A stretch of DNA of 27,326 nucleotides from a virus. Location of the stretch: positions 1-27,326 of the IMG/VR virus record IMGVR_UViG_3300032163_001348; one strand, written 5' to 3'. Positions 2,386-9,244 of the stretch are shown one piece after another. A model generated the notes under the pieces. That model did no database searches, was not told the DNA's origin, and worked only from the letters and a program-made list of their open reading frames with translations. Position 1 is the stretch's first letter, and every line of letters begins with the position of its first letter. The position numbers and the translations under genes are program-made.

Positions 2386-3258
2386 CTACCATCCCGGCGG
2401 TTTGTTCGCCCGCGCCTCGAACTGCCCGCGCTTGCGAACCTGCCAGGCGATCCCCGCCGCCATCACCCGATCGTCCCGGGCGCCCGACTGCGCCTCCTGC
2501 GCCCCATTGTCCTTGGTCACGAAGCTGAAGCACTCATCCACCAGCCCGGTCGAGTTCAGGATGATGTGGCCATTGGCGATCGCCGCCGCCAGTTCATCCA
2601 CCAGAATCGGCTTCGTCTGCGCATCGGTCGGCCAGCCGAGGATCGGCGTCGCCGCCCTGGAGTGCGCATCATACCGCACATGTTGGTAAAGTCGGGGGTA
2701 ATGATAGGTGTGCCGGAGTGTGTTGAGGGTCGAGTGCCCGTGATTGTTCCGCTCGATCCCGACCAGGGCGGTGTTGTACCAACGGCCCAGGGCATCTACC
2801 AGATGAGCGAACCGCTCCGGCGTGACCCAACCATGCAACTCCGCTACTTGCTCGCAGGTCTTCCGCTCCATCACGAACGCGCAGCTCGCATCCCGCCCCT
2901 CGATTCCCTCTCCAATGTCGGCGCCGATCACATAGCGCTCGCCGGCCTCTGGGGGCCGCCAGACCAGCAACTGCGCCGGCGCCATGCTGACCGCCTCTTT
3001 GCGGCCGTTCGCTAAGCTCGGCCGGACCTCGGCTCGCCGCGCCGCCGCCCGGGCCTGCTGTGCCTTCAGCGCCTCGGTGTCGAAGCAGCACCGCCCGCTC
3101 GCCAGGAAGCAGGTCACGTCCGATTCTGGATATTGCTCATCGAACCGGCCCCGCAAGTCAGCTTTCTTCTGGCGGCGCCACTTGATCTGCCCCAGCCTCA
3201 GGCCATAGTCACGAATCAGGCCGATCTCATCCTGGGTCAGTGGGCTGACTTCACCCAT
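2386..3258 (-). CDS. Terminase large subunit, C-terminal nuclease half
   Basis: The 290-residue product matches the C-terminal half of a phage large terminase. It starts with the connector that normally follows the ATPase (LTQDEIGLIRDYGL, IKWRRQKKADL, YPESDVTCFLASG), followed by the RNase-H-like nuclease with three acidic sites: D114 in IGADIGEG, E169 in VGIERNN and D262/D263 in GARDDRVMAAG. This domain cuts concatemeric DNA during headful packaging. No ATPase motifs are present; they lie in the separate gene at 3709-4449. The ATG at 3258 overlaps the HNH stop codon and has AAAGGA about eleven bases upstream, so the half could be translated on its own as a nuclease subunit. The break is caused by the HNH gene between the halves. 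Confidence 0.9.
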   Translation of the reverse strand: MGEVSPLTQDEIGLIRDYGLRLGQIKWRRQKKADLRGRFDEQYPESDVTCFLASGRCCFDTEALKAQQARAAARRAEVRPSLANGRKEAVSMAPAQLLVWRPPEAGERYVIGADIGEGIEGRDASCAFVMERKTCEQVAELHGWVTPERFAHLVDALGRWYNTALVGIERNNHGHSTLNTLRHTYHYPRLYQHVRYDAHSRAATPILGWPTDAQTKPILVDELAAAIANGHIILNSTGLVDECFSFVTKDNGAQEAQSGARDDRVMAAGIAWQVRKRGQFEARANKPPGW

Positions 3259-3754
3259 ATGTGTGCGTTCCTTTGCAGTGAGCGTGTGCCGCCAGATGAT
3301 CGCGTTGGCTTGCCATCACCTCGAGGTTCTCAGGGCGGTTATCGTCTTTGCGCCCATTGCGGTGATGAACGACCTCCTCCGCGGTGAGGGGACGAGCCAG
3401 ATGGCGCTCCATAACGAGGCGGTGCTCAAGCATGTATCCCTTGTGATCCGCACGGGGGTGGCTGGGCATGTATATGAGTACATAACCGTCGCTTTGTCGA
3501 ATCCGTCCACCCTTGTAATTCGGACTGCGGCGACCCTTCAGCTTCCGCGAGATGCGTGCGCCCGTGAGCTTCACGGCTTCCTGTCTGGGCCTACATCGGA
3601 TTCCCATGCATTTCAGTTGATACCAGACCGCGCCGCCACTCATGCCAAGGGCATCCCCTATCTCGTGGCAGGATTGTCCGTCCCTGTACATCTCTGCGAA
3701 GACTGGTCTCAGGGCCGTGCCACGAGGCCCAACTGCCGCAACTGCTTTCCCCAT
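3251..3754 (-). CDS. HNH homing-type endonuclease inserted in the terminase gene
   Basis: Starting at ATG 3754 (GAGGAA upstream), the product has 167 residues. Residues 18-52 form a helix-turn-helix-like segment (EMYRDGQSCHEIGDALGMSG). The C-terminal part is an HNH_3-type nuclease: EHRLVMERHL (110-119), EVVHHRNGRKDDNRPENLEVM (128-147) with H130, H131, N133 and N143, and H153 in QRDHLAAH. Such proteins are mobile homing endonucleases of phages. The gene fills the space between the terminase ATPase and nuclease halves: its start overlaps the ATPase end by 46 bases and its stop overlaps the nuclease start by 8. The local DNA is visibly less GC-rich than its neighbours, consistent with acquisition. 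Little room remains for a group I intron core. Confidence 0.9.
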   Translation of the reverse strand: MGKAVAAVGPRGTALRPVFAEMYRDGQSCHEIGDALGMSGGAVWYQLKCMGIRCRPRQEAVKLTGARISRKLKGRRSPNYKGGRIRQSDGYVLIYMPSHPRADHKGYMLEHRLVMERHLARPLTAEEVVHHRNGRKDDNRPENLEVMASQRDHLAAHAHCKGTHTYG

Positions 3755-4449
3755 GCCTGTTCCTCTTCTGGCGTAACTCGGAGTGTGTATCCAGGATCCT
3801 CCCACCACAGGTAGAAATGCGTGGAGAATCGCGTCGCCCCTTCTTTTGCCTGTGTCCAGAGTTCGTGGAAAGCATTTCCCATCCCATTGGCGGTGGATTC
3901 CAGCACCACCCGGCCGCCGGCCGGCACCGCCTCGAGCAGACCGGCCAGGGATTCATCCGGATGGGTCCACCGACTGACCTCGGAGCAGTGCAGGTTGTTG
4001 ATCGTCAGGCCGTGGCCGAACCGGGTCGAACCGGCGGTCCCGACGTAGTAGGTCGAGCCGATCTTCGGCCAGAAGAGCTCGCCCTTGCGGTCATACTTGG
4101 GCTGGCCCACCTCTGCCCTCTCCCGTGCCGGCAGCCGCTCCCAGAAGAGACGCACGATGCGGAAGATCAACTCGCTGGAGTCGTAGTCATGCGCCACCAG
4201 TACGCTCGTCGTGTTGGGGCGCAGGATCGTGTCCGCGAAGAAGAGACCGCTGACGAGGGTGGTGAAGCCCAGCTGGCGGGGCTTCAGGATGATGTCCCAG
4301 GGCGTGCGATAGCCGTAATAGTCAGCCTGTGCCCAATTCAGCAGGAACGGAACGACCTGCCGCGCCTTGGTGCGAATCCAGAGGTTCGCCTCGATCCAGG
4401 GCCGCGGGTCACTGACGCGGGCCGTTCGGCTTTCGAGCCTTTCGCCCAT
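3709..4449 (-). CDS. Terminase large subunit, N-terminal ATPase half
   Basis: This is the ATP-driven motor part of the large terminase. From ATG 4449 it has 246 residues: the adenine-binding/Q region near WDIILKPRQLG, the deviant Walker A KPRQLGFTT (56-64), the Walker B-type strand NNLHCSEVSRW (151-161), motif III VVLESTANG (181-189) and the family segment THFYLWWEDPGY (210-221). It then stops after a short tail, where an intact terminase would continue into the nuclease. The frame is open upstream to 4575, but that would overlap the small subunit by 167 bases; the chosen start keeps 41 bases of overlap and has a weak GGAA. Residues beyond about 231 overlap the HNH gene. The nuclease half is a separate gene at 2386-3258. 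Confidence 0.85.
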   Translation of the reverse strand: MGERLESRTARVSDPRPWIEANLWIRTKARQVVPFLLNWAQADYYGYRTPWDIILKPRQLGFTTLVSGLFFADTILRPNTTSVLVAHDYDSSELIFRIVRLFWERLPARERAEVGQPKYDRKGELFWPKIGSTYYVGTAGSTRFGHGLTINNLHCSEVSRWTHPDESLAGLLEAVPAGGRVVLESTANGMGNAFHELWTQAKEGATRFSTHFYLWWEDPGYTLRVTPEEEQAWGKQLRQLGLVARP

Positions 4450-4997: not shown

Positions 4998-6305
4998 TTA
5001 TGTCCGACGCCGCGGCGGCCGCGCAAGACGGCCCGACTCCCCCTGCTGGCTCGCCGGAAGCCCTGCGAATGATTCCCACCGCTGAAGGATCACATCGCAG
5101 TAGCGCGCATCCAGGTCGAAGCCGTAACAGCGCCGGCCGGTCCGTTCCGCCGCCATGATGGTCGTGCCGGAGCCAAGGAATGCATCGACCACCAGTTGCC
5201 CCGGCTGGGTGGCATTCTGGATAGTACGCTCGATCAGCAGCAGGGGCTTCATGGTCGGGTGCAGATCGTTCACCGCCGGCTTGTCGTGCTCCCACACCGT
5301 GCGCTCATTGGTGGGCCCATGCCACCGTGGCGCCTTGCCCTGCTTGAAGGCATAGAAGCACGGTTCGTACCAGTGCTTGTACTGCGCGAAGAGCGCGCCC
5401 GCGCCATTGTTCTTCACCCACACGATCAGGTTTCGCTCTTCCCAGCCGGTGCCGGCCATGCACTCGAGGACGCTGCGGAGATGACTGCTCGCAAACCAGA
5501 GGTAGAGAGGGGCCTTGTCATCGGAGTGCTGGTGAGCAAGCTTGAGGCTGCTCGTGAGTAGAGTCCGGTACTGCTCCGGACTCAAGTCATCCCAGTAGGC
5601 ATCGCCGGCTTCGACGCGGGTTCCGCGGCGGCGCTTCCAGATCCGCTTCTGCTGGGCCGCGCGCCCGCCCACGTAGTTGATCCCATAGGGCGGGTCGGTG
5701 ATTACCGCCTGCGCCTTCTCCCCCGCCATCAACTTCTGCCAGGTCTCCGGGTCGGTCGCGTCACCACAAAGCAACCGGTGCTTGCCCAGCTCCCAGATCT
5801 CGCCAAGGTGGACACGGGTCGGGCCCCGCCGGCGTTCCGCCTCCGCCATAGCCTGCTCGGCATCGAAGGTCTCTTCCCGGTCACGCTTCCCTTCGGTCTC
5901 CAGTTTGGCCAGCAGTTGCCCGAGGTCATCATCGCTGAACGCCGAGGCCAACAAGCAGGCCTGGGCATCGAGCGCCTTGAGCTGCTCGGCCAGCAGCGCT
6001 TCATCCCGGACCGCGAACTCGTGCGTGCGGTTGTCGGCGATGGCAAAGGCCATCGCCTCGGCCTCCGCATCGTCCACCCAGATCACCGGGATCCGGGCCA
6101 ACCCGAGTTGCTTCGCCGCCCGCCAGCGCGTATTGCCCGCCTCGATGTATTTCGTCCGGCGGTTTACCACGATGGGCTGCCGGAAGCCGAAGCGGCGGAT
6201 CGAATCGGCCACCGGCCCGATCGCCGCCTCGTTCACTCTCGGGTTCTTCGGATTCAGATGCACCTGGTCTATGGCCACCATCTCGATCTTCGGCCCCGTT
6301 GCCAT
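4998..6305 (-). CDS. ParB-like domain fused to DNA methyltransferase
   Basis: This 435-residue fusion has an N-terminal ParB/sulfiredoxin-like domain (residues 1-110; LNPKNPRV at 17-24, YIEAGNTRWRAAKQLG at 53-68) and a C-terminal beta-class amino-methyltransferase. Catalytic motif IV TDPPYGINY (203-211) precedes the AdoMet motif I VDAFLGSGTT (373-382), and DLHPTMKP (347-354) is the usual segment before motif I. It should methylate adenine N6 or cytosine N4 in DNA. No restriction enzyme is adjacent, so a solitary phage enzyme for self-protection or regulation is likely. Such ParB-methylase fusions next to terminase genes are common in phages. Translation starts at ATG 6305 with AGGGGAG at 6314-6320, preceded by a structured leader. 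Confidence 0.92.
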   Translation of the reverse strand: MATGPKIEMVAIDQVHLNPKNPRVNEAAIGPVADSIRRFGFRQPIVVNRRTKYIEAGNTRWRAAKQLGLARIPVIWVDDAEAEAMAFAIADNRTHEFAVRDEALLAEQLKALDAQACLLASAFSDDDLGQLLAKLETEGKRDREETFDAEQAMAEAERRRGPTRVHLGEIWELGKHRLLCGDATDPETWQKLMAGEKAQAVITDPPYGINYVGGRAAQQKRIWKRRRGTRVEAGDAYWDDLSPEQYRTLLTSSLKLAHQHSDDKAPLYLWFASSHLRSVLECMAGTGWEERNLIVWVKNNGAGALFAQYKHWYEPCFYAFKQGKAPRWHGPTNERTVWEHDKPAVNDLHPTMKPLLLIERTIQNATQPGQLVVDAFLGSGTTIMAAERTGRRCYGFDLDARYCDVILQRWESFAGLPASQQGESGRLARPPRRRT

Positions 6306-7191: not shown

Positions 7192-7484
7192 GCCCCGATG
7201 ATCTCCCTGATCTCGACCATCCTGGATTCTCGGCGCGCCAACGCCATGCACTCGCGCAGGTTCCTCCAGTGGATCGCGATGGCTCCGTCTCTCAGGGCCG
7301 CCTCCGGCCTCGAGCCGAAGACATCGTAGTGCGGGTGGAATCGGTCCCGCTGGAACCAGAAGCGTTGCAGACCGATGCGACGGGCGAAGTCGTGGAGCTC
7401 CGGCGTATCCGCCGAGACGATCTGGCCACGCTCGTTCGCCCCGAGTTCGGCCATCAGATGGATTCCATCGTGGAGATAGATCAT
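7188..7484 (-). CDS. DUF4031 family protein
   Basis: This 98-residue protein carries the pattern I associate with DUF4031: a short N-terminal strand with a histidine-aspartate pair (IYLHDGIH), SADTPELHDFARRIGLQRFWFQ (residues 24-45), HPHYDVFGSRPEAALRDGAI (49-68) and a C-terminal AIHWRNLRECM helix. The conserved His, Asp and Tyr residues look functional, but the biochemical role of the family is not known to me. It is tightly coupled: its ATG overlaps the recombinase stop and its stop overlaps the radical SAM start, both as ATGA, and GGAGGGGG lies before the start. Co-translation with the radical SAM gene suggests, but does not prove, a shared process. Confidence 0.75.
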   Translation of the reverse strand: MIYLHDGIHLMAELGANERGQIVSADTPELHDFARRIGLQRFWFQRDRFHPHYDVFGSRPEAALRDGAIAIHWRNLRECMALARRESRMVEIREIIGA

Positions 7485-9244
7485 GCCACCCCCTCCGCCA
7501 CGCGCTTGCCCCTCACCGGGAGCGGCAGTTCGACCTCGGCCTCCCAGTGCCCCTGCCCCGGGACCATCAAGAACGATCGAATCGCGCCCCCGCTACCCGC
7601 GTTCTTGATGGCGGCGAGTTCAAGGATTCCCTCGAGCGCCCCTTTCAGCACCAGCGTCGCGGCCGGCCGGGCCTCCCCCTGGACCGGCCGCGGGCGCGCT
7701 TCGATCCGCTGCACCAGGCAGGTCATCGCCCCCTTCACCTCACGCACTCGCCCCTTCGCCAGTTGCGCCCGGAGGTCCGATACCACCTTCCGAATGAGCC
7801 GGGAGAACGCGGCCCGACCCGGCGCCGATCGCTGGTCATTGGCCCGCAGGATGGCACGGCGCAGCTCCTCCTGCCGGTCTTCGGCCTGCCTCATGCGAGA
7901 GACCAGCTCATCGCCCAGAGGGATGCCCTTTGCCACCGCGTCCACCAAGGCGCTGATCTCGCGCTCGGTCTCGGCGAATCGGAGCCGGAGCTGGTCGCCC
8001 TCCTGCCCCGATCTGGGCCGGCGTCTAGGTGCACGCGCCGCGACGTTCGCTTCGAGTCGCTTCACCATGGCGGGAGCGGCAGCCAGGTTCTCCAGTTCAT
8101 GCAGCACCGCGGCCTCCGCCCGTCGAGCGCTCACAGTCAGGCGGCTATCACACACCGAGTCGCCTCGCTGCTGGCGCGCCGCGCAGACGTAGGTGTCCTT
8201 GCCGCTCAGCACCATGTTCGCACCGCACTGGCCACACTTCAGGATACCACTAAGCAGCCGCCTATTGCGCTGACCGGACGCGGTGCATAGATCGTCCCGG
8301 CCCGTCCGCCGCTGCCGCGCCTTCACCCTCTGCCAGAGATCATCGGGCACAATGCGGAGATCGGGAGCCTCGAGTATTAGCCATTCGCGCTCCGGCATGT
8401 CTCGCCAAACCCGGCGTCCATCCCGCTCCGGATGCCTCAGCCAGGTCCGGCGGTTCCAGATGACGCGCCCGGAGTACTTCTCATTGTTGAGGATCCCCGT
8501 CCCATGCTTCCGATCGCCAGCGATGGCCGTCGCGCACCAGGTGCGCCGTACCCCTTCCCGGTTCCGCCACCTCTCTGCCGGCGCCGGGACGGCCTCCGCG
8601 TTCAGTTGCCCCGCGATCTGGCGAGGTGACGCCCCATTGACATAGAGCTCGAAGATCCGCCGCACCACGCCGGCCTCGAGTTCGTGGATCACATGCTCGT
8701 AGCCGACGATCCGGCCCGTGCCCTCCGGATCCCCCGGACGGTGCTCGTGGATGGGCCGACTGCGGTAGCCGTAGGCGGCGCCGCCGACGTGATGCAGCGC
8801 CTTCACATGCTCTCGCATCCGGCTTCGGGTCCGGTGGGAAAGACTCTTTGTCTCGGCGGCGGCGGTGAAGCCGTGCACCATCACCAGGGCGTCGGCCGCC
8901 TCCGGCGAGGCCAGGGTGTCTATCCCATCCTGGATCGCCCGGAGGTGGACGCCCCAGAGGGGCAGCCGTTCCATCAGGCCGGCCTGTTCACTGACCCGGC
9001 GGGTGAGGCGGGAAAGCTCGTCCACGAGGATGACATCGAACTCCCGCCGGCGCGCCCGGGCGAGCATGTCCTGGTAGCCGTGTCGGCGGAGCGTCACCGT
9101 CCCTGGGGTCTCCGCGTCCGAGAAGACCGCGGCCTCCTGCCAGCCGCGGCGCTCGATCTCGCGCCGGCAACTCGTGATCTGAGCGTCGAGGCTCAGGTCA
9201 GTCTGCCGATCGCTTGAGAACCGGGCGTAGATCGCCGCTCTCAT
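7481..9244 (-). CDS. int: Large serine recombinase (integrase)
   Basis: The product has 587 residues, the usual size of large serine integrases. The N-terminal resolvase domain contains the nucleophile region AIYARFSSDRQ (S10/S11), SLDAQITSCRREI and DVILVDELSRLTR (about 76-88), followed by the AETKSLSHRTRSRMREHVKALH helix. The recombinase DNA-binding domain follows (GAAYGYRSRP, ILNNEKYSGRVIWNR), then a zinc ribbon with CGQCG and VCAARQQRGDSVC (about 340-368), a coiled-coil part (RLRFAETEREISALVDAV) and a C-terminal tail. It would integrate and, with a directionality factor, excise the phage. ATG 9244 has a GAGAGG site. No non-coding DNA flanks the gene: it overlaps DUF4031 on one side and the 60-aa gene on the other. 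Confidence 0.92.
   Translation of the reverse strand: MRAAIYARFSSDRQTDLSLDAQITSCRREIERRGWQEAAVFSDAETPGTVTLRRHGYQDMLARARRREFDVILVDELSRLTRRVSEQAGLMERLPLWGVHLRAIQDGIDTLASPEAADALVMVHGFTAAAETKSLSHRTRSRMREHVKALHHVGGAAYGYRSRPIHEHRPGDPEGTGRIVGYEHVIHELEAGVVRRIFELYVNGASPRQIAGQLNAEAVPAPAERWRNREGVRRTWCATAIAGDRKHGTGILNNEKYSGRVIWNRRTWLRHPERDGRRVWRDMPEREWLILEAPDLRIVPDDLWQRVKARQRRTGRDDLCTASGQRNRRLLSGILKCGQCGANMVLSGKDTYVCAARQQRGDSVCDSRLTVSARRAEAAVLHELENLAAAPAMVKRLEANVAARAPRRRPRSGQEGDQLRLRFAETEREISALVDAVAKGIPLGDELVSRMRQAEDRQEELRRAILRANDQRSAPGRAAFSRLIRKVVSDLRAQLAKGRVREVKGAMTCLVQRIEARPRPVQGEARPAATLVLKGALEGILELAAIKNAGSGGAIRSFLMVPGQGHWEAEVELPLPVRGKRVAEGVA

Follow-up and report, generated by a model that had tools for sequence, protein, structure and literature searches.

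A phage large terminase gene in two pieces with an HNH endonuclease gene in the break: a probable two-subunit packaging enzyme

In a 27.3-kb IMG/VR entry from an uncultured phage, the ATPase and nuclease domains of the large terminase (TerL) are encoded by separate genes with an HNH endonuclease gene between them. Is a terminase divided in this way a two-subunit enzyme, is the division undone by splicing or is the gene dead, and was it the endonuclease that broke it? An initial annotation of this stretch (27,326 nt, hereafter the window) had favoured a two-subunit enzyme and named the HNH endonuclease as the agent of the split. The first part is supported below by two unspliced-looking genes with both halves under selection; the second is not established.

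Organization of the terminase locus

The three genes lie head-to-tail and overlapping on the minus strand: the ATPase half (4449-3709), a gene with helix-turn-helix (HTH) and HNH_3 domains (3754-3251) and the connector plus nuclease half (3258-2386). All motifs and the three gene boundaries reported earlier were located on this strand. Stop codons and 450 nt separate the halves, placing the TerL domains in separate polypeptides, and the HNH ORF, from ATG 3754 to TGA 3251, fills this space as had been described, sharing 46 nt with the ATPase half and 8 nt with the nuclease half. Flanking the trio on the same strand are a possible small-terminase gene immediately upstream (5026-4409), a guess from its customary position with only weak Pfam and PHROGs matches, and an SPP1-like portal protein gene downstream (1856-426; SPP1_portal 1e-9, PHROG 533 3.3e-43). 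Just 5' of the terminase genes, window positions 5001-6305 encode a ParB N-terminal domain fused with an N6/N4 DNA methyltransferase. A large serine recombinase (Resolvase, Recombinase and zinc ribbon) is encoded at 7484-9244, which suggests a temperate phage.

The ATPase half (246 aa) begins at ATG 4449 in a frame open up to GTG 4575 and stops at TGA 3711-3709, the end already given for it. It matched PHROG 2 (TerL, 1.5e-18), aligned by profile to residues 106-316 of T4 gp17 and scored 53-80 % against the ATPase portion of intact TerLs. All ATPase motifs are retained, namely ILKPRQLGFTT, NNLHCSEV and ESTANG, and thus a terminase Walker A/B pair with its coupling motif. The core K, RQ, G and T of the Walker A-type motif KPRQLGFTT (4258-4284, minus strand) are invariant in the family alignment, and ESTANG (coupling motif III; 3883-3900, minus strand) is the same in split and most intact relatives.

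The second TerL gene (290 aa) encodes the connector and an RNase H-fold nuclease (Terminase_6C 5.5e-8; PHROG 2, TerL), aligning by profile to gp17 367-549 and by fold to the G20c, RB49 and T4 terminase nucleases, although an AlphaFold model of this half by itself was only moderate (pLDDT 65). That it restarts at ATG 3258 with an Asp/Glu/Asp centre was borne out: D114 (2917-2919), E169 (2752-2754) and the pair D262/D263 (2470-2475), all on the minus strand, occupy invariant columns in the alignment of relatives. The 'nuclease' half also holds the last part of the ATPase domain, the connector, and the break is therefore not at the nuclease boundary. T4 gp17 is a profile and fold homologue of both halves and, unlike them, a single polypeptide.

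The HNH gene encodes 167 aa (HNH_3 2.9e-8; PHROG 20891 HNH 1.3e-28), with the HNH_3 catalytic domain VVHHRNGRKDDNRPENLE at 3305-3424 on the minus strand (Pfam PF13392) and its conserved His and Asn residues. A profile search of the protein against solved structures returned nothing but helix-turn-helix-like repeats. Its start codon sits in Ala-Trp codons of the ATPase tail, and a Shine-Dalgarno (SD)-like GAGGA lies in the Glu-Glu codons of the same tail (3761-3765, minus strand; anti-SD duplex -6.0 kcal/mol). The nuclease half had been credited with its own AAAGGA, which we located inside the HNH 3' end at 3274-3269 on the minus strand (anti-SD duplex -5.6 kcal/mol), 10 nt before the nuclease ATG.

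Similar signals accompany the HNH genes found at the same location in two more divergent records, L103 and L115, whose HNH proteins match that of the window at 42 % and 55 %, respectively. The SD-like sites for HNH are stronger in both than in the window, and AAAGGA is replaced by AGGAG in L103 and AAGGGA in L115, so that in all three the overlapping nuclease ATG follows an SD-like site by about 7-10 nt. Every HNH carrier has SD-like sites and gene overlaps. From these overlaps and the ribosome-binding site in the HNH 3' end, the three genes are probably translated as a coupled chain.

The break lies within a native long linker

Comparison with intact relatives had been proposed as the way to find the exact junction. 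A single-sequence scan with the ATPase half recovered nothing beyond the L002 locus and one short fragment, and profile scans of IMG/VR were used instead; these yielded the split loci L103, L115, L008 and L271. Two loci were left out: L177, which matched only from residue 90, and L015, whose nuclease part is interrupted by an in-frame stop. L019 is split as well; its contig runs out 182 nt short of the nuclease start, and the partial insert is probably another gene. L019:195-948 holds a nuclease half that lacks about 36 residues and changes frame after residue 180, through decay or assembly error. A genome scan for relatives brought no further clear split. Of the loci examined, 274 appear intact (some contigs counted twice), and L003, L005, L016, L116 and about 270 other relatives have an unbroken terL; the host gene is thus whole where the endonuclease is absent, as in other genes-in-pieces.

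L002 is a separate record with the same three-gene order, differing from the window by 15 nt (one amino acid) over 187 ATPase codons, and the locus is therefore not an assembly artefact of one contig. The layout of L103 and L115, with HNH in the gap, is that of the window. In L008 the gap holds a 404-aa pentapeptide-repeat gene (Pfam Pentapeptide_3 6e-28) in place of HNH; this protein, encoded at L008:3731-4945, is apparently membrane-anchored. L271 has no insert, its ATPase TGA and nuclease GTG overlapping as GTGA with a good SD site. Its split could be a frameshift error, yet its stop occupies the conserved position. The ATPase stop falls exactly 14 codons past the same Trp in the window, L002, L008, L103, L115 and L271. 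This same-codon split in L103, L115 and L008, together with the separate record L002, speaks against the ATPase half being a sequencing artefact.

The C-terminal tail of the ATPase half, TPEEEQAWGKQLRQLGLVARP followed by the stop (3709-3774, minus strand), is the front half of a native long linker. Its form in split loci is T-x-E-E/Q...A/V-W-x-x-Q-L...G-x-x-x-R/K-x-stop, and tail and stop position are common to L008, L103, L115 and L271. In most intact relatives the linker is about 20 residues shorter. The intact L116, in contrast, has the linker PTAAEEAAWAAQLVSADAGQLGARDGVAGLSQDELRLI, in which the tail and the nuclease start are present unbroken, locating the break inside a long linker of native origin. 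We had considered that the tail was delivered by the HNH element; L116, intact yet with the same tail, argues against this. It also already holds GAGGA..ATG, out of frame. In an AlphaFold model of L116 (pLDDT 83) this region forms a helix (258-272), a loop and a second helix (287-296), and the break coincides with residues 278-281, the only internal stretch of the model under pLDDT 50.

Judged against the subdomains of gp17, the break presumably falls before the end of ATPase subdomain II. Being shared, this subdomain could by analogy keep both chains joined. The TerLs of L114, L119 and L125 match the window at 53-57 % in the ATPase part and at only about 33 % in the nuclease part, which looks like domain swapping near the position of the linker break.

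No sign of a splicing element

An HNH gene in this position could belong to a self-splicing intron, with RNA splicing restoring a single TerL polypeptide. Spliced introns that carry HNH_3 genes are documented for a phage tape-measure gene (PMC10448857), as is splicing of phage terL (PMC12363816). Against such an intron, the whole gap is taken up by the HNH ORF, which extends into each half, bearing out the earlier remark that there is no room for a group I core. The Rfam intron search that had been suggested gave no covariance match in the window region at permissive thresholds; on L002, L008, L103, L115 and L271 it gave one irrelevant sub-threshold match far from the junction, and no conserved catalytic RNA core of group I or II was found in the six split loci. 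The ATPase tail is moreover native linker, ending at the same codon even in L271, which has no insert, and in L008, which has an unrelated gene. We regard an intron as extremely unlikely. Pfam searches of the window for an intein domain found none, and native linker accounts for no more than 21 and about 5 residues at the facing ends of the two halves, leaving no split-intein sequence. These searches thus gave neither intron nor intein, in keeping with genes-in-pieces.

Both halves are under purifying selection

Insertion might instead have inactivated terL, another terminase or a helper phage then packaging the DNA. T4 gp17 split artificially at its linker keeps ATPase and nuclease activities whilst translocation is abolished (PMC3012670), a result that favours a dead gene, as does the fragmentary nature of the records. 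The substitution pattern speaks against it. dN/dS between the window and intact L003 was 0.11 for the ATPase and 0.10 for the nuclease, and between L115 and intact L016 0.11 and 0.21; the ATPase core of the window versus L002, both split, gave 0.02. Intact-intact pairs ranged over 0.04-0.32, so that split values are within or below this range, and relative-rate counts displayed no consistent excess along split branches. Substitutions therefore indicate that both halves are conserved under purifying selection, like intact relatives. All catalytic residues are present, the split form is retained across divergent lineages, and records of 54 kb, 38 kb and 27 kb each contain one ATPase place and one nuclease place with no second TerL, in a search that overlooked the L271 copy. 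As all split records are uncultured contigs and maybe incomplete, an intact TerL may exist elsewhere in these phages. Overall, a dead terL is unlikely.

Movement of the split and order of events

Trees of the ATPase core and the nuclease core each required four changes of split state, and a single split clade was rejected (AU p 4e-47 for ATPase, 2e-6 for nuclease). The window groups with intact L003 and L005, and L115 with intact L016. Within these pairings identity collapses at the junction, to 38 % versus 85 % elsewhere for window/L003 (Fisher p 7e-10) and to 37 % versus 76 % for L115/L016 (p 9e-7); the drop in intact control pairs was much smaller (p 0.01-0.19). At the junction, split genes resemble one another, the long linker being common to them. 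The similarity among HNH proteins, in which the window is closer to L115 than to L103, conflicts with that among TerLs, in which the window is nearer L103. The window and L002 diverge by about 10 % before the terminase and at its start, then hardly at all from HNH on for more than 3 kb, a step that we read from the alignment as a recombination boundary; a similar boundary has been described for phage nucleases (PMC10448857).

The HNH family is itself scattered. The nearest relatives of the window protein adjoin unrelated genes (RusA/ParB, tail-fibre, methyltransferase), and most free-standing relatives align only from about residue 14 onward, where the ATPase frame stops. With the HNH motif, the mosaic junctions and the boundary between the window and L002, this pattern points to a mobile endonuclease with co-conversion of its flanks, a predicted homing activity with putative cleavage. 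The mosaicism could alternatively have arisen via repeated replacement by intact alleles.

Another role for the HNH protein is suggested by HK97 gp74, an HNH protein that functions within the packaging machinery. The window gene is encoded amid packaging genes and is probably translationally coupled to both TerL halves. Conservation beside the terminase was not found, the HNH gene being absent from the L271 and L008 splits and from intact linkers, and its nearest relatives stand beside the unrelated genes named above. A packaging function is thus very unlikely.

The title claim of the initial annotation, a terminase split by an HNH endonuclease, holds as to place, since HNH sits in the split. 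Causation is not established, because L271 (no insert) and L008 (pentapeptide gene) are split at the same codon without HNH. The endonuclease may have broken terL and then been lost in some lineages, or it may have entered a gene already split. The latter order, in which terL split first through a stop/start overlap as in L271 and HNH, like the L008 pentapeptide gene, invaded the boundary later, is compatible with a two-subunit TerL. It draws on the insert-free L271, on the other genes at the same boundary in L008 and probably L019, on HNH homologues whose alignment is mostly confined to the region past the ATPase stop, and on gene 43A/43B of phage 25 as a similar case, where it is likewise unclear which of split and invasion came first (PMC2988022). 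On the other hand, HNH is the most frequent occupant of the break, the L271 state is equally explained by HNH loss, and the junction mosaicism suggests that the split travelled together with the endonuclease. We consider a split that preceded the endonuclease a serious possibility, if somewhat short of probable.

A second, independent group of split terminases

In L168 (3980-5463), L426 (1428-2890) and L427, which represent a different phage group, TerL is also encoded as two genes, with a conserved ATGCTAA stop/start overlap after a GGAGAG site and no insert. The break follows the connector, at the connector/nuclease boundary, rather than using the linker broken in the window. Between L168 and L426 each half keeps 77-79 % identity whilst silent sites are saturated. 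This independent split makes a functional two-gene terminase more credible. L158, L170, L174 and L175 also belong with this group of two-gene TerLs. The ATPase start of L168 coincides with the end of an HNH-like gene. Other coding sequence is inserted between the halves in L155 (3950-4900) and L172 (3200-4600), that of L172 being, by eye, a methyltransferase-like reading frame.

Comparison with known systems

The closest precedent in kind, by analogy, is nrdA of Aeromonas phage Aeh1, split by the HNH endonuclease MobE and described as genes-in-pieces (Friedrich et al. 2007, reviewed in PMC2988022). Both loci have a free-standing HNH gene within a conserved phage gene, two polypeptides with both halves retained, and no splicing element. 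The reassembled NrdA enzyme was shown to work, whereas an active assembly of the terminase halves is predicted; the host gene here is terL, and unlike the nrdA split, that of terL recurs in several lineages and persists without HNH. T4 gene 60/39 (mobA) and phage 25 gene 43A/43B (seg) likewise combine an essential enzyme in two pieces with a homing endonuclease, differing from the window in enzymes and endonucleases.

Among terminases, Aeromonas phage PX29 17A/17B shares with the window a large terminase in two genes with an endonuclease, but is annotated with a split intein and a GIY-YIG endonuclease, such that protein trans-splicing would rejoin it; the window has no intein sequence. The PX29 locus (GU396103.1 136984-139973, L411) is annotated 17A/17B, and its RefSeq copy labels 17B merely a homing endonuclease. 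The terL genes of ICP1 (PMC10448857) and the Jug phage (PMC12363816) are interrupted, with homing endonucleases in or near them as in the window, but unlike it are rejoined by intron splicing, and the interruption in Mic1 terL is rejoined by an intein (PMC7156551). The open-access literature searched yielded no terminase functioning as two unspliced polypeptides and no split terminase with HNH.

A two-subunit terminase and its implications

We judge it likely that the window encodes a two-subunit large terminase whose gene is broken in the linker, with HNH in the break, and that this form has spread by recombination; the most likely explanation is a true two-subunit TerL that arrived by horizontal transfer together with the HNH element. 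In the arrangement we propose, the break in terL would fall in a flexible linker that joins the main ATPase subdomain to the connector plus nuclease part, and the ATPase polypeptide would end in a short helix of native linker. An HTH-HNH gene of homing type, itself free-standing, would start from a ribosome-binding site and an ATG embedded out of frame in the codons of the ATPase linker, and its own 3' end would supply the site for the nuclease ATG that it overlaps, probably coupling all three genes in translation. The packaging motor would most likely be a complex of the two TerL polypeptides; as gp17 split at its linker lost translocation, the natural halves would need a stronger association. 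The split form and HNH would then pass between phages by recombination around the putative homing endonuclease, taking the flanking linker along.

More broadly, and more tentatively, a two-subunit motor may be a stable and repeatedly transferred form of the terminase, in which the nuclease is a separate subunit that can be made or engaged independently of the translocating ATPase, the gene boundary is a site where endonuclease genes and other cargo dock, and L168, L426, L427 and their kin split independently at the ATPase/nuclease hinge; we consider this wider picture possible, a little below an even chance. The loss of translocation on separating the gp17 domains suggests that the covalent ATPase-nuclease link is important to the motor. 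Conserved terminases with a natural split would demonstrate that this linkage is dispensable, or replaceable by a non-covalent interface, and would offer a ready-made system for studying how ATP hydrolysis couples to DNA movement and headful cutting. They also mean that an endonuclease-associated split spreads through a gene widely used in the classification of tailed phages.
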